Notes under the pieces: model-generated
Databases searched by the model: none
The model's input: the letters and a program-made list of their open reading frames with translations, nothing else
What the model was told of the DNA's origin: nothing
Position numbers and translations under genes: made by a program
Origin: Caldifarciminota bacterium
GTDB taxonomy: Bacteria; Hydrothermota; Tepidihabitantia; SM23-42; JAOAFX01
Length of the DNA: 34,289 nt
Direction: 5' to 3'
NCBI GenBank assembly: GCA_026416055.1
Contig: JAOAFX010000014.1
Coordinates: 1 to 34,289, forward strand
In this document: positions 2,955 to 10,530 of the stretch, in pieces
How the letters are laid out: each line of letters begins with the position of its first letter
Position numbering within the stretch: position 1 is the first letter of the stretch

Positions 2955-5372
2955 TTATTTTATCTTGACAGCACGCATTGGCTTAATATTTTCGTTTTGT
3001 GGTTTGATAAAGTAAACCCCTGCTGGTAAACCATCACAGAGCCGGTTTCCTTTGAATATCCCCATTTTTCTGCCTGAAGTATCATAAATCTCAAAGTCTT
3101 TTTCTTGACCACCAGTGATAGATGTATAAGAGACAAAAGGATTTGGTGCTATCTTCGTTTCCGATTGTTTCACACCAAAAATCATTTCATCTTCTTCTAC
3201 GACGGTCATTTCATCAGCGAGTACTGAAATATAACAATCTTGAACATTTCCCACATAAACCCGATTATGTGTAGAATTCCAACATAAAGGCTGAGGACGG
3301 GTTCCTACTCTAATGTGAGCCACAACATTATCTGTAGCACCATGAATCACCCGAACATAACCCTGGTCATATTCAGCAAGATAGAGTTTGTTATTTATTG
3401 AATTATAAAGTAAACACGCTGGTCCATTGGGAGTTCCAGGGGATAGGGTAGTTATTATATTGTCATTGCTGCTGTTTATGACTGTCAGAGCGTGGTTTCC
3501 GTAGTTCCCCCAGTTATAACTGTAAATCTTATTGTTGACCGGATTATAGGCAAGTGCATGGCAACGGCGCCCACTTAATGAAATATTAGTAATTATGCTA
3601 TTTGTGGTACCATTAATTACGCTAACATGGCCACCCAGAGTTCCACAGTAGATTTTATTATTAGTCGGATTGTAAACAAAAACAACAGGGCTTTGTGAAG
3701 GCATTGATAAGGTAGCGATAAGGCTATCGTTTGAACCATCAATAATTGTCACCATCTGATTACCCCAGTGGCTAACATAGATTTTATTGTTCAAGGAGTT
3801 ATAACATAGTCCGCGAGGACTAGCATTTGTTCCTAAATTGATAGTTTTTCTCACAGTGTCGCCCTGTACATCTATTACACTTACACTATTCCCCCCTTCA
3901 TTGCTACAATAAATCTTATTATTTGCAGAATTAAAAACTAAATCGTAAGGATAATCACCTACAGGAATCGTAGCGACTATGCTATTGTTTGAACAATTCA
4001 TTACTACTACATTATCGGCATTGCGATTGACACAATATAATTTGTTGGCAGAAGAAATATATAACAGTTTTTGGGGGTTGAAATTAAAACCAAGGGGTAC
4101 CATTGTCTCAACATAATTAGTAATGCCATTTATTACTGCAATTTGATCGGAAACATAGTATCGATTTCCGGGAGTAACGGCACAATAGATTTTGTTATTG
4201 TTTGGGTTGTAATCAAAGGCTAAGGGGCTAAATGAATATAGCGGAATTCTTGTAACAAGATTGTTTGTTGCTCCGTTGATCACTGCAACTTCTGTGCCCC
4301 AGGCAATTGAGTATATTTTATTATTCACCGAATTATAAACCAGACCACCTCGGTTAAGTGTAGGCATTGGTATGTTCGCTATCACCTGGTCTGTGGCACC
4401 ATTTATGATAGATACTCGGGTAGTATCACCCGCATAAAAAAGATGGCAATTACAATAAATTTTGTTATTGGCTGGGTTGTAGCACAGATTAATTGCACCA
4501 CCTTGATTCGGGATTGTTGTTATTACCGCATTGGTAGCACCGTTAATTACAGTAATTGTATTCGCTGTCGAACTAGCTGCATAGATTTTATTATTAATAG
4601 AATTATAAATCAGGTCGTCAACCTGGCCGCCGATTGAGATATTGGTAATAACGGCATCTGTCGTGCCATTTATTATAGTTACCTGCTGAGAATTACCACA
4701 ATAAATTTTATTATTAACAGGATTATAAGCTAAAAGACGAGGAACTGTACCAACCGAGATAGTGGTAATTACAGTATTGGTGGCGGCATTTATTACCGTT
4801 ACAGAACTGCCAAGATAGTTTGAACAGTATACTTTATTATTGGTAGAATTATAACAGAGATATTGCGGTCCATCACCAACACCAATTGTGGCAATCACCG
4901 AATCGGTTGCGCCGTCAATCACACTTACTATATCACCCCCATAATGAGCACAATAGATTCGGTTATTAGCAGGTACATATAGAACATACCAGGGAGATGG
5001 GGCTACTCTTATATTTTTAATCACGTTATTAGTTACACCGTCAATTACAAATAAAACACTATCTGTTGCAGAAGGACAATATATTTTATTATTCTGGGAA
5101 TTCCAGCAGAGTGATCGGACTTCAGAACCCACTTTAATCCTCTTAATCTTCTGGTCTGTTGCACCATCAATTACGATAATGCAATCACCGTTGTATCCCG
5201 CAACATAGATTCTATTATTTATTGGATTATAGACACTTGCCTGAGGTTCCAAAACCCCGTGCAAGGAATCCGGGATATAAATTTCACCTTCAAGCCATTG
5301 CCCTTTCACCAGCGTTGCAGGGAGCAGCAAAAAGATAAAGATTAATATTAGAGCATTCTGAAATGTTTTCAT
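2955..5372 (-). CDS. Secreted YVTN-type beta-propeller repeat protein with sorting domain
   Basis: 805 residues. A signal peptide (residues 1-25, hydrophobic core ALILIFIFLLL) is followed by 16 copies of a ~43-residue repeat with the signature 'YN..NNKIYC......V.VI.GATN.VI.TI..G'. This is the YVTN/NHL-like beta-propeller pattern found in surface proteins. Sixteen blades would make two propellers. Residues ~740-805 form a C-terminal sorting-type domain: APNPF, then IYDTSGRKMG, LPAGVYF and the terminal MRAVKIK. The protein is probably exported and anchored or released by a type IX-like route (inference). The start ATG at 5372 has AAGGAGG upstream. The gene lies directly downstream of the STAND/SARP regulator and has its own promoter with 12-bp repeats (5391-5432). 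The ligand is unknown. Confidence 0.9.
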   Translation of the reverse strand: MKTFQNALILIFIFLLLPATLVKGQWLEGEIYIPDSLHGVLEPQASVYNPINNRIYVAGYNGDCIIVIDGATDQKIKRIKVGSEVRSLCWNSQNNKIYCPSATDSVLFVIDGVTNNVIKNIRVAPSPWYVLYVPANNRIYCAHYGGDIVSVIDGATDSVIATIGVGDGPQYLCYNSTNNKVYCSNYLGSSVTVINAATNTVITTISVGTVPRLLAYNPVNNKIYCGNSQQVTIINGTTDAVITNISIGGQVDDLIYNSINNKIYAASSTANTITVINGATNAVITTIPNQGGAINLCYNPANNKIYCNCHLFYAGDTTRVSIINGATDQVIANIPMPTLNRGGLVYNSVNNKIYSIAWGTEVAVINGATNNLVTRIPLYSFSPLAFDYNPNNNKIYCAVTPGNRYYVSDQIAVINGITNYVETMVPLGFNFNPQKLLYISSANKLYCVNRNADNVVVMNCSNNSIVATIPVGDYPYDLVFNSANNKIYCSNEGGNSVSVIDVQGDTVRKTINLGTNASPRGLCYNSLNNKIYVSHWGNQMVTIIDGSNDSLIATLSMPSQSPVVFVYNPTNNKIYCGTLGGHVSVINGTTNSIITNISLSGRRCHALAYNPVNNKIYSYNWGNYGNHALTVINSSNDNIITTLSPGTPNGPACLLYNSINNKLYLAEYDQGYVRVIHGATDNVVAHIRVGTRPQPLCWNSTHNRVYVGNVQDCYISVLADEMTVVEEDEMIFGVKQSETKIAPNPFVSYTSITGGQEKDFEIYDTSGRKMGIFKGNRLCDGLPAGVYFIKPQNENIKPMRAVKIK

Positions 5373-5390
5373 ATTGCCTCCTTCAATGAT

Positions 5391-5440
5391 ATTATATTTA
5401 TGGGTGTCTAAAAAAGTGTCAAAAAAAATGTCAAAAATGG
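5391..5440 (-). promoter_or_regulatory. Promoter and three 12-bp direct repeats (putative SARP operator)
   Basis: Read on the minus strand, three T-rich blocks ending in GACA follow one another with an exact 12-base period: TTTTTGACATTT, TTTTTGACACTT, TTTTAGACACCC. The GACA cores are at 5429-5432, 5417-5420 and 5405-5408. Exactly 8 bases after the last core is a perfect -10, TATAAT (5391-5396). No -35 at normal spacing is present: the nearest TTGACA is 20 bases away. Activator-dependent promoters of the SARP family have direct repeats ending about 8 bp before the -10. The upstream gene encodes a SARP-type regulator, so it is the obvious candidate to bind here. Confidence 0.7.
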
Positions 5441-5443
5441 TGT

Positions 5444-8400
5444 TTATCTGGTACTTGTCAGCCTCTTGAACAGAACCTGGGTTTCTGGTTCAGGCTCTTT
5501 ATTAAACTCATTAGCTAACAATTTCTCTAATCTTGCGTAAGTATGTTTTATGTTTTGAAATTTTCTCATACGGGAATAAGCAACCATTAAATTACGATAA
5601 TGTTCTTCATTAAATGGATCAATTTTTATGATTTCTTCATAAATATCAATATACTGACCTAAACGACTTTTCCTGGCATATATTTGGGCAAGTGAAAGCA
5701 GAATATTAAGATATTTTTCTTCATATTGTCTTCTCAAATCGTCCACCCATGAATCATACCAGCCTTCACAAAGTGATCCCTGGTAAAGCATTTTTGCTCT
5801 ATTAATCAAAATTGCAGAATTCCTGCTTATTTTTTTATCCGCAAGTTGGCTTATAAGGTTGTCAAATTCTCGGGCATCAACCCATAAGGAGATATTTTCC
5901 TTGAGTTGATAGCCTTTGTTACTGTAAATAATAACATCACCGAGTGCCTTTCTCAAATAATATAATGCAGTGCGAAGATTTTTCCCACCTTTTGGAGGTT
6001 CTGTATCAGGCCAGAAGATTTCAATAAGTTCTTCTCTTGAGAATCTTTTATCGGGATGTAAGGCAAAAAGGACAAAGAGTTTTGCGGCTTTTTCAACGAA
6101 TAAATCCTTGATACCTATTTCAATTTTACCTTTGTAAATTCTTGGTTTGCCAAAAACAAATAATTTTATGGCTTCACTAATAGCGGACATATCAGATAAT
6201 TTTTTAATGAGTCCAGATAGATAATTGGCATCCGACGATTTCAAATTACCCTGTTCAAGTAATAACTGGGATAGTTCAAATAAATGCGGGATTCTTTTTA
6301 AAGCGCGCGATAAAATACCTCCGTAACCGTATTTTCTTGCTACTTGAATATTTTGCTTTAACAGCTGCACTCCTTTATCGATTTTGCCAGTAGAAGCCAT
6401 TATTGCTGCCCGTAGTAGAAAGGTTTCAAACATTTTGCTTTTTGAATTAATTCTTTTTGCTAAGTTCAAACAACGGACTGATGTTCTTTTTGCCTTATTG
6501 TATGTACCGGCAAGTAATTCCAGCAAACATGTTTCAATGAGTAAAGAAACATAAAATATATCATCGGATTTACCTTTATAATTGTATGCCTGTGATAGAT
6601 AATATTCCGCTTCTTTTTGATTTTTTTGACAATTTTTTAAAGTGGCGTAATAGAGGTAGGTGAGTCCAGTATATCTATTTATACCAAGTTTCAAATATTT
6701 TTGAAGTGCCTCTTTTAAATAGCCTTCAGCTTTATTCCACTCTTGTTTTTCAATATATACCAGACTTGATGCCAGATTGAGTGCGGCGAGTGAGTGCGGG
6801 TCATTGTAATCCTTGCATAGGGTATATCCATTGTTTAAAATTTTTTCAGCACCGTCAATATCTCCATAGTCAAGTACTATCCTGACTGCGTTTAAAAAGA
6901 GCGTTCCTCGACCATATGAGTAATGTGTTCCTATTTTCGCAATCAATAAATGAAAAGAGTTGAATGCTTTTGAAATATTGCCGAGCTCGTAGTCCACCAT
7001 TGCCAGATTTGCTTCAATTGTGAGATGTTCGTGGAAGTCGGATAATTTCTTTATCAAATTTTGCGCCTTTAAAAGATAGTGCTTAGCCTGTTTCACACCG
7101 ATACAGTCCCATACCGTTAATCCAATAAGGTTGTAAATTCGTTCTTTTAGCTTGATTTGAGAAGCGGGACAGATTCTAATTGCCTTTTTCAAAGATATGA
7201 GTGCCTCTTTATACCTGTTACATCGCCAGTGAATTACGCCCTGTTCATAAAAAATTTGGGTAAGTCCTGTTTTATCTTTCTGATTCAGTAAATAACTTTC
7301 AATCTGATTTAATAAATTTAAAGCTTTATCAAACTTACCATCATTATGGTAAATTATACTTTGCAACCAGAGCAATCGTGGGTAGTGGTCAAAAACATAA
7401 TCCGGTATTTGATTTAGCCATTTTTCAAGAATAAAAAATTTAGCCTGTTCAATCAACATTTCACCATATTGAGATATTAGTTCGCCAGCCCTTTCATAAT
7501 TTTCAGCTTTAACATAATAATCGATTGCTTGCTCAAAAAATTTTTTTTCTCGATAGTACTCTGCTGCCTTAAAATATAGATTTCTTTTAAGTGCAGGGTC
7601 TAATTTATTTAACAGGAAATGTCGGAAAAGAGGATGGTATCTATACTGGTTAGATCCTAAAATTGAAATAAAGATATTGCGCTTTTGAATATCTCTGAGA
7701 ATTTTTCTTGCTTCTTTTACTTCCATTACCGCATCACAGATTTCAGGCGTAACAACTTCCAAGACTGAACTTTTTTTGAGAAAATCCTGTATTATTAACG
7801 GCTCATTAGACATAAGTTCGCTGGTAAAATAGTCAAACAACGACTGTTCTTGTTCCATAATGTCGATCAGTTTTTCTTTTATGGCTCCTTTAGCCCGGCT
7901 TGCATACTGTAATATCAACTGAATGCCGGTGATCCAACCTTCAGTCTGGTTGGCTATTATTTTAAGTTCCTCTAAAGTTAGTGTAAGATTATAGATATTT
8001 TCAAGAAGAGCCTTTATTTCGTGTTCGTTAAACTTAAGGTCTTCTCGCGATAACTCAAATAAGTATTGTTTGAGTTTCCATCGGGCAATTGAAGGAATCG
8101 GGGGAATAGTCCGTGTTGCAATAATAACATGAATGTTATCTGGTAAATATTCAATGAAATATTCCAATGCTTTATGAACTCTGCTGTCTTCCGAAAGAAT
8201 ATGATAATCATCGATAACAATAAATAATTCTCCTCGCCTCTTTTCTATAAATTCATTAATCAAAGTTCCAAACATAAATTCATAATTACTCACTAATTTA
8301 CCATTCTGGACCAACATCTTTTCTGTTTGCACACCTAAATCTTCTTGAACCTGTTTAAACCCAAAAATCAGATGGGATATAAAGACTGATAAATCACCGT

Positions 8401-8614
8401 CGTTTTTATCTAATTTATAGAAAACACAAGGTAAGTTTTCTTCTTTAATGAGCTGGACTAAAGCGGTGGTTTTGCCATAACCGGCGTCAGCACATATTAA
8501 AATAAGTTTTTTATCAAGATTCTCTTTAAGTATCTTCAATAATCTTTCCCGGTGTAAGATTTTTCCCTTTAATTGTGGTGGTTGAAGCTTGGTTTGCAAC
8601 ACCAAATTCTGCAT
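5444..8614 (-). CDS. MalT-like STAND ATPase fused to SARP winged helix and BTAD
   Basis: 1056 residues. The N-terminal NTPase has Walker A ADAGYGKTT (42-50), close to the MalT form, and Walker B IVIDDYH (~131-137). A long TPR-like helical region spans ~340-800. Near residue 815 a new domain begins with 'LFVFGKPRI', an OmpR-type winged helix (FSREELIEIFWPD, then LRTALYYLRKALGD). Residues ~905-1056 form a bacterial transcriptional activator domain (LYQGSL...W, R.QYEEKYL, then helices). The architecture is that of large STAND/SARP activators in which ligand and ATP control oligomerisation and DNA binding. The DNA-binding module is SARP-type, not the LuxR helix-turn-helix of MalT. The likely target is the adjacent propeller promoter. 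The ATG at 8614 lies just 6 bases after a -10 box with no ribosome site, so the mRNA is probably leaderless. Confidence 0.9.
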   Translation of the reverse strand: MQNLVLQTKLQPPQLKGKILHRERLLKILKENLDKKLILICADAGYGKTTALVQLIKEENLPCVFYKLDKNDGDLSVFISHLIFGFKQVQEDLGVQTEKMLVQNGKLVSNYEFMFGTLINEFIEKRRGELFIVIDDYHILSEDSRVHKALEYFIEYLPDNIHVIIATRTIPPIPSIARWKLKQYLFELSREDLKFNEHEIKALLENIYNLTLTLEELKIIANQTEGWITGIQLILQYASRAKGAIKEKLIDIMEQEQSLFDYFTSELMSNEPLIIQDFLKKSSVLEVVTPEICDAVMEVKEARKILRDIQKRNIFISILGSNQYRYHPLFRHFLLNKLDPALKRNLYFKAAEYYREKKFFEQAIDYYVKAENYERAGELISQYGEMLIEQAKFFILEKWLNQIPDYVFDHYPRLLWLQSIIYHNDGKFDKALNLLNQIESYLLNQKDKTGLTQIFYEQGVIHWRCNRYKEALISLKKAIRICPASQIKLKERIYNLIGLTVWDCIGVKQAKHYLLKAQNLIKKLSDFHEHLTIEANLAMVDYELGNISKAFNSFHLLIAKIGTHYSYGRGTLFLNAVRIVLDYGDIDGAEKILNNGYTLCKDYNDPHSLAALNLASSLVYIEKQEWNKAEGYLKEALQKYLKLGINRYTGLTYLYYATLKNCQKNQKEAEYYLSQAYNYKGKSDDIFYVSLLIETCLLELLAGTYNKAKRTSVRCLNLAKRINSKSKMFETFLLRAAIMASTGKIDKGVQLLKQNIQVARKYGYGGILSRALKRIPHLFELSQLLLEQGNLKSSDANYLSGLIKKLSDMSAISEAIKLFVFGKPRIYKGKIEIGIKDLFVEKAAKLFVLFALHPDKRFSREELIEIFWPDTEPPKGGKNLRTALYYLRKALGDVIIYSNKGYQLKENISLWVDAREFDNLISQLADKKISRNSAILINRAKMLYQGSLCEGWYDSWVDDLRRQYEEKYLNILLSLAQIYARKSRLGQYIDIYEEIIKIDPFNEEHYRNLMVAYSRMRKFQNIKHTYARLEKLLANEFNKEPEPETQVLFKRLTSTR

Positions 8615-8620
8615 AAATAA

Positions 8621-8648
8621 ATTCTATTAAATTAATGCAGTAAGTCAA
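8621..8648 (-). promoter_or_regulatory. Promoter of the STAND/SARP regulator, apparently leaderless
   Basis: The minus strand has TTGACT (8643-8648), a 16-base spacer and TAGAAT (8621-8626). The regulator ATG follows 6 bases later and no Shine-Dalgarno sequence is present. Confidence 0.65.
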
Positions 8649-10272: not shown

Positions 10273-10530
10273 GAATTTGCAAGAAAAGAATATTTACAGG
10301 CATTTAAGTTATTCCGTGGTGAGCCATTCAAAAAGAATTTTGATAACTGGTCAGTGGATATGAGATTTAAAATATTGACCCAGTTTGAAACTGAAGCAAT
10401 AAATTTTGCAAAGAGTTGTATTGAACATAAAAATCTTGCGGATGCCCGAAAAATTTTACAGAAAGTTTTAAAGATTATTCCGGATTCAGAAGAAGCAAAA
10501 AGATTGCTGGATGGTTTAATTGCAATGTAG
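10273..10530 (+). pseudogene. Remnant of a second BTAD (SARP-type) regulator
   Basis: A + strand frame of 85 codons without a proper start runs to TAG at 10528. It reads EFARKEYLQAFKLFRGEPF, then NFDNWSVDMR, and ends in a TPR-like helix pair (ADARKILQKVLKIIPDSEEAKRLL). It aligns with the BTAD end of the 5444-8614 regulator (LYQGSL...WYDSWVDDLR...; IYEEIIKIDPFNEEHYRNLM). A TGA lies just upstream in frame, and no winged helix or ATPase is recognisable before it. I read it as the surviving 3' end of a deleted paralogue on the opposite strand. Confidence 0.65.

Follow-up and report, generated by a model that had tools for sequence, protein, structure and literature searches.

The window, a 34,289-nucleotide stretch from a Caldifarciminota bacterium, contains a gene for a putatively secreted beta-propeller protein whose -10 element has no properly spaced -35 partner and which lies 71 bp downstream of a gene for a STAND ATPase, raising the question of what switches the propeller gene on. 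The original prediction was that three direct repeats ahead of the propeller gene form the operator of a SARP-type activator encoded by the upstream gene. The sequence evidence indicates that the regulator most likely does switch on its neighbour, since relatives keep the layout with a different repeat word for each pair. The window is one case of STAND–SARP regulators that occur phylum-wide beside secreted-protein genes, each with its own repeat word. At the very end of the contig, positions 1–19 of the window (AGATGTGTATAAGAGACAG) match the Nextera mosaic-end adapter exactly and are a sequencing artefact.

The repeat array ahead of the propeller gene

The following features were assigned, the repeats and the ribosome-binding site by reading the sequence, the -10 element additionally by a consensus scan, and the propeller by its TIGR02276 match (2e-72).

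5429–5440, minus strand: direct repeat 1, ccatttttGACA
5417–5428, minus strand: direct repeat 2, ttttttttGACA
5405–5416, minus strand: direct repeat 3, cttttttaGACA, proximal and imperfect
5391–5396, minus strand: -10 element TATAAT, 8 bp past repeat 3, with no -35 at 16–18 bp
5377–5383, minus strand: ribosome-binding site AAGGAGG
2955–5372, minus strand: putative target gene, a YVTN beta-propeller protein with 16 blades and a sorting-like C-terminal tail

On the minus strand, AGATAA, which holds the regulator stop, is followed by ACACCATTTTTGACATTTTTTTTGACACTTTTTTAGACACCCATAAATATAATATCATTGAAGGAGGCAATATG up to the start of the propeller gene, whose ATG lies at 5372. The repeats begin 3 nt past the stop codon (5446–5444) and occupy most of the gap. 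Their units are T-rich, each ending in GACA, and follow one another with a period of exactly 12 bp; the third copy is imperfect (TTTAGACA vs. TTTTGACA) and is separated from TATAAT by the 8-nt spacer CCCATAAA. Direct reading of the minus strand therefore bears out the predicted GACA blocks, their exact 12-base period and their distance of 8 bases from TATAAT. If the transcription start is placed from the -10 element, the propeller mRNA is predicted to have a leader of only about 12 nt. The predicted 16-blade propeller is confirmed by 16 NKIY-type blade motifs together with TIGR02276; its N-terminus is hydrophobic, and the Por_Secre_tail model TIGR04183 scores 20.1 bits against a cut-off of 23.

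An ordinary sigma-70 promoter for the propeller gene was considered and rejected. The closest TTGACA (5422–5417) sits 20 bp from TATAAT, too far to be usable as a sigma-70 -35, and the consensus scan found no sigma-70 promoter on the minus strand at the gap, as the prediction of a missing -35 had it. The T-runs do directly follow the regulator stop codon and were likewise considered as a terminator of that gene or as an RNA element in the leader of the propeller mRNA, but this reading was rejected: no stem is formed and the folding is weaker than that of most shuffles (z +1.5). The repeats also lie upstream of the -10 element, no minus-strand terminator was found by a scan at the gap and no Rfam match was obtained there, so that this reading has next to no probability.

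The array was compared with 3000 shuffles of the 71-bp gap in which dinucleotides were kept. Its triple-repeat score was matched in 0.3% of them at period 11 or 12 and in 1.4% when all periods of 8–16 were allowed. In DNA this rich in T, the window array exceeds chance only moderately when taken alone, and the strong evidence for the repeats is comparative. TTGACA is, moreover, also the -35 consensus. These points, together with the occurrence of the regulator–propeller pair in one genome only, speak for a coincidence in which AT-rich T-runs happen to lie beside a sigma-70 promoter with a poor -35 while the regulator acts elsewhere. However, the 20-bp spacing and the empty promoter scan run against it, dozens of homologous regulators show the same arrangement with unrelated words, and propeller relatives without a regulator neighbour mostly have plain TTGACA-N17-TATAAT promoters; such a coincidence is considered unlikely.

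Pattern searches of the 2.1 Mb genome found the three-copy pattern once, the other three-copy matches (3 mismatches) being the same array moved by one unit, and a looser pattern of two copies plus the -10 element likewise occurred a single time. Across 61 genomes, a loose GACA pattern was no commoner than its reversed control, giving no sign of a genome-wide GACA regulon. The GACA word thus seems to serve one gene.

A SARP module on a MalT-like sensor

The features of the regulator are as follows; the module was delimited by model, Foldseek and profile search, and the recognition helix is the third helix of the winged helix-turn-helix (wHTH) in the model.

5444–8614, minus strand: regulator gene, 1056 aa, with an N-terminal STAND/MalT-like ATPase, MalT-type TPRs and a C-terminal winged helix and BTAD
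5447–6169, minus strand: SARP module, residues 816–1056 of the regulator
5942–5998, minus strand: recognition helix alpha-3, PKGGKNLRTALYYLRKALG, residues 873–891 (module residues 58–76)
8621–8648, minus strand: putative promoter of the regulator, TTGACT (8648–8643), 16 bp, TAGAAT (8626–8621)

Pfam matches to the regulator are PF17874 (6e-15), PF03704 BTAD (3e-14) and PF13401 AAA, and the winged helix is weak in Pfam, PF00486 reaching 25.1 bits, slightly below the cut-off of 26.2. Residues 6–806 correspond to the STAND ATPase and TPR region of NCBIfam MalT (1e-76), and the regulator matches the MalT structure 8bob at 2e-34. The Walker A motif GYGKTT (residues 45–50) is invariant in 13 homologs, and the protein carries the NOD ATPase and TPR sensor of MalT-type STAND regulators. 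NCBIfam AfsR matches residues 852–1052 (5e-10). The BTAD comprises residues 912–1051, and the winged helix lies between it and the TPR region, giving the SARP order of an OmpR-type winged helix directly followed by a BTAD.

An AlphaFold2 model of the C-terminal 241 residues, built with an alignment of 46 sequences, has a pLDDT of 96.0 and a pTM of 0.89. Its best PDB matches by Foldseek are the AfsR structures 8k60 and 8hvr, in which AfsR is part of transcription initiation complexes (E 2e-11 to 6e-11, TM 0.76–0.79), and EmbR 2fez (E 5e-9). A profile search with the module reached AfsR at 3e-30 across the full module length. Since MalT matches N-terminally and the AfsR fold and profile C-terminally, the regulator is a C-terminal SARP module on a MalT-like sensor, and Pfam, NCBIfam, 8bob, AlphaFold2 and Foldseek all agree with the predicted STAND ATPase with SARP winged helix and BTAD.

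The regulator itself looks to be transcribed from an ordinary promoter (8648–8621). On the opposite strand, at 10273–10527 (+), a BTAD remnant (E 7e-8) lies outside any intact gene; it is what is left of a second SARP gene that has decayed close to the intact one.

Tandem repeats beside homologous regulators

Regulator homologs were found in 58 of the 100 genomes compared, often several in each, and BTAD was matched in all 29 nearest homologs. The named matches come from WOR-3, Stahlbacteria and TA06 MAGs, followed by Acidobacteria, Chloroflexi (Anaerolineae) and a small number of Bacillus-type genomes. About 80 loci were sampled for the family test. The first set comprised 45 gaps following regulators; in it, near-perfect 7-mer repeats peaked at period 11 alone (27/43 vs. 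24/132 control gaps), and a repeat together with a -10 element at a plausible distance was present in 21/43 vs. 4/134 (P 8e-12). In a larger set from the WOR-3 phylum, a period-11 repeat plus -10 was present in 29/65 gaps downstream of regulators, in 3/57 of those upstream and in 5/123 control gaps, and period 11 was again the only one with a peak. For other phyla, a repeat plus -10 was found in 6/24 downstream, 5/37 upstream and 2/164 control gaps. When only regulators below 50% identity were kept, period 11 was retained (13/34 vs. 5/123, P 1e-6), and none of the other periods reached P 0.05 in that set. About half of the homologous pairs fall below the joint threshold of repeat plus -10, and some homologous regulators have no recognisable repeats downstream.

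The search of relatives suggested by the original prediction was thus rewarded, tandem repeats before a -10 element being far commoner after homologous regulators than in control gaps. The exact regulator–propeller pair had no ortholog in two congeners or in one other family member, and because no second genome has this pair, the window operator is without a phylogenetic footprint. For the predicted regulator–target pair, it is the link of such regulators to repeats before a -10 that stands on direct comparison, and from it we infer that the window regulator binds the window repeats and activates.

Several homologous loci have distinctive layouts. L065, L070 (G000 contig C128) and L085 are genus-level paralogs in which the BTAD ends early; L065 and L070 encode proteins of about 975 aa, and L065 keeps perfect TTTCACA repeats ahead of the following gene despite the early BTAD end. 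At L066, L068, L072, L073 and L076, two such regulator genes form a tandem pair. Downstream of the second gene, L066, L068 and L072 have a promoter with TGTGAG repeats and then a gene with a carboxypeptidase-regulatory-like N-terminal segment, probably a TonB-linked receptor, and in L066 and L072 an unusual period-10 repeat lies upstream of the first regulator gene.

The repeat word varies between pairs: TTTCACA, TTGCACA, TGTTATG/TGTTGTG, TGTAACA, TGTGAG, TGGTAAG, TTTTTTAACG, TTTTAGG and CTGTAATG were found, and the word of the window pair is TTTTTGACA. In G002, of the window's own genus, at least three words are in use among the pairs (TTTCACA, TTTTTTAACG and TGGTAAG), and the three species of the genus compared all retain the TGGTAAG pair (L071, L127, L128). 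Regulators with similar words also tend to be similar in alpha-3 (r 0.47), with a partial r of 0.31 after correction for BTAD similarity; neither value was matched in any of 5000 permutations. Computation thus shows that the repeat word follows the recognition helix alpha-3 between pairs. The window module is the sister branch of a large TTTCACA clade, on a long branch with a support of only 90, and its word is one letter off that of the clade (TTTTTGACA vs. TTTTTCACA). Counted from the -10 element, the second copy ends 20 bp before it in the window and in the clade alike; only the proximal copy of the window is shifted, by one base.

In PhoB boxes, too, direct repeats of 11 bp, with a TGTCA core, take the place of the -35, and the window repeats could be the box of an OmpR/PhoB-type response regulator, or of a second SARP regulator, rather than of the neighbour. 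The genome has paralogous regulators of its own, some TTTCACA sites lie far from any regulator, and the site at afsS that PhoP and AfsR share (PMC10972967) provides a precedent. However, the repeats are tied to adjacency with BTAD regulators, the words track the helix of the adjacent regulator, and the GACA array occurs only at the window locus in its genome, which makes a box for another protein quite improbable.

The geometry of the TTTCACA class was examined by seeking TTTCAC-N5-TTTCAC, without using the -10, in nine genomes with regulators. There, 56 sites were found vs. 2 for the reversed pattern, and 20 genomes of that class lacking regulator matches gave 7 vs. 6; this word is frequent only in genomes with these regulators. 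Thirty distinct sites were inspected; in 20 of them TA...T lies exactly 10 bp further downstream, the only distance at which the mean match to TATAAT shows a peak. A longer pattern including the -10 occurred 70 times vs. 1 for its control in 15 genomes. Contig C1 of G018 (a 2.4 Mb genome) holds 24 sites vs. none reversed, suggesting a sizeable regulon. TTTCACA repeat promoters also precede propeller genes in G005 (L227/L248) and G020 (L228/L244) with no regulator gene in the DNA examined, and are possible remote targets, the L227 and L228 propellers probable ones. Some of the regulators thus appear to have regulons.

The targets appear to be mostly secreted, often with T9SS sorting tails. A hydrophobic N-terminus, called by a simple window score, was found in 37/45 genes beside repeat-bearing gaps vs. 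47/123 other genes (P 3e-7). The T9SS type A sorting tail TIGR04183 was present in 14 of 29 scanned target proteins at E <= 0.001, and its Pfam equivalent in 11 of 29. Families among the targets include propellers, Kelch, BNR, LVIVD, TonB-receptor, subtilase and peptidase C25.

SARP repeats have a period of 11 or 22 bp and the wider family of homologous regulators follows period 11, whereas the window has 12. The original prediction had called this unusual. It does depart from the family rule, but period 12 recurs in three or four other pairs, namely L056 (TGTCAACA), L084 (GGTGAAG), L035 (TGATAAC, next to one of the closest regulator homologs) and, by eye, L086, where CTAATAG at period 12 is followed by 8 bp and TATAAT. 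The 12-bp class is without significant enrichment (3/34 vs. 3/123, P 0.12). That period 12 is the property of a clade was rejected, since the 12-bp pairs are scattered over the regulator tree with at least 5 changes; the window module itself is a long lone branch there. Period 12 tends to coincide with an aromatic residue at one position of alpha-3 (5/7 vs. 7/50, P 0.003), which is a lead only, because the position was chosen after inspection of the helix and the count includes weak calls (L135, L132, L204). The secondary operator of PimR has 10-bp units, a precedent for variation by one base (PMC5930380). The 12-bp spacing may be treated as a tolerated or adapted variant of the family period of 11.

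Proposed activation and known systems

Taking together the computed repeats, geometry, module fold, family link to period-11 repeats before a -10 element and word–helix link, a signal-gated SARP-type activator with a private operator and one propeller output is very probable as a whole. The winged helix and BTAD modules would bind side by side, one per GACA repeat, and, positioned 8 bp upstream of the -10 element, would substitute for the missing -35 by holding RNA polymerase via sigma region 4, in the way that AfsR acts on the promoter of afsS. The STAND ATPase and TPRs presumably keep the module off until inducer and ATP are present, as in MalT and AfsR. The output would be one secreted 16-blade propeller, with an operator private to this regulator–propeller pair. 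The gating by ATP and inducer, the tolerance of the 12-bp spacing and the reason for private operators are likewise parts that we infer. The regulator could instead bind the repeats and repress, or act without contacting sigma, given that binding just upstream of a -10 element can in principle hinder polymerase; this is very unlikely, as the missing -35, the spacing of 8–10 bp fixed across the family and the AfsR precedent (PMC10936776) fit activation.

Most of what is known of SARP activation comes from the control of antibiotics in Streptomyces. The same promoter logic is seen here in an uncultured phylum of Gram-negative type, with signs of it in Chloroflexi and Acidobacteria, and is coupled to a MalT-like sensor and, in most cases, to secreted proteins; no study of C-terminal BTAD/STAND regulators outside actinomycetes was found in the open-licence literature. 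A tentative extension, put forward with clear reservation, is that STAND–SARP regulators have multiplied into insulated cassettes, one word and one secreted neighbour each, in which alpha-3 sets the word and partly the spacing (12 rather than 11 bp with an aromatic residue). If true, such cassettes would let the cell switch its surface proteins individually by separate signals. Because each regulator adjoins its operator, dozens of regulator–operator pairs can be read from genomes. Such a collection provides data on the winged-helix recognition code and allows operators to be predicted in unculturable organisms, and it also yields a testable idea of how large surface proteins are switched on in these bacteria.

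The system can be classed as a variant of SARP-type activation, with a C-terminal module, a non-actinobacterial host, private operators and surface-protein targets. Its closest known counterparts include AfsR and the other large SARPs of Streptomyces (SARP domain, NOD and TPR, with the afs box at afsS), with which it shares the wHTH and BTAD fold and the gate of a STAND-type ATPase and TPRs. The AfsR box has a period of 11 bp and lies 8 bp from the -10 element; in the complex, each repeat is occupied by one of the adjacent protomers, whose alpha-3 enters the major groove, sigma region 4 is held in place of the -35, and ATP binding lifts the inhibition by the NOD and TPR parts (PMC10936776). 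The window array has the same direct repeats with the 3' copy 8 bp from the -10 element, in place of a working -35. However, the SARP module is C-terminal here (816–1056 of 1056) and N-terminal in the large SARPs of Streptomyces (PMC10972967). The window regulator also differs from AfsR in its MalT-related ATPase, its non-actinobacterial host, its period of 12 and its target, a putatively secreted surface-type protein instead of an antibiotic pathway regulator; in place of secondary-metabolite control in actinomycetes, the relatives are WOR-3/Stahlbacteria and the target is a propeller. PimR, a SARP-LAL whose operator has three heptamers with 4-nt spacers, shares the three tandem repeats, one monomer for each, and the target next door, with units of 11 bp (10 bp in the secondary operator, PMC5930380) against 12 bp in the window. 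MalT, the STAND activator of E. coli, shares an N-terminal STAND ATPase, an arm and a TPR sensor, which span residues 6–806 of the window regulator, but ends in a LuxR-type HTH, where the window regulator has the wHTH and BTAD. EmbR of Mycobacterium tuberculosis, in turn, shares the wHTH and BTAD module, and has an FHA domain in contrast to the STAND ATPase and TPR sensor of the window regulator.
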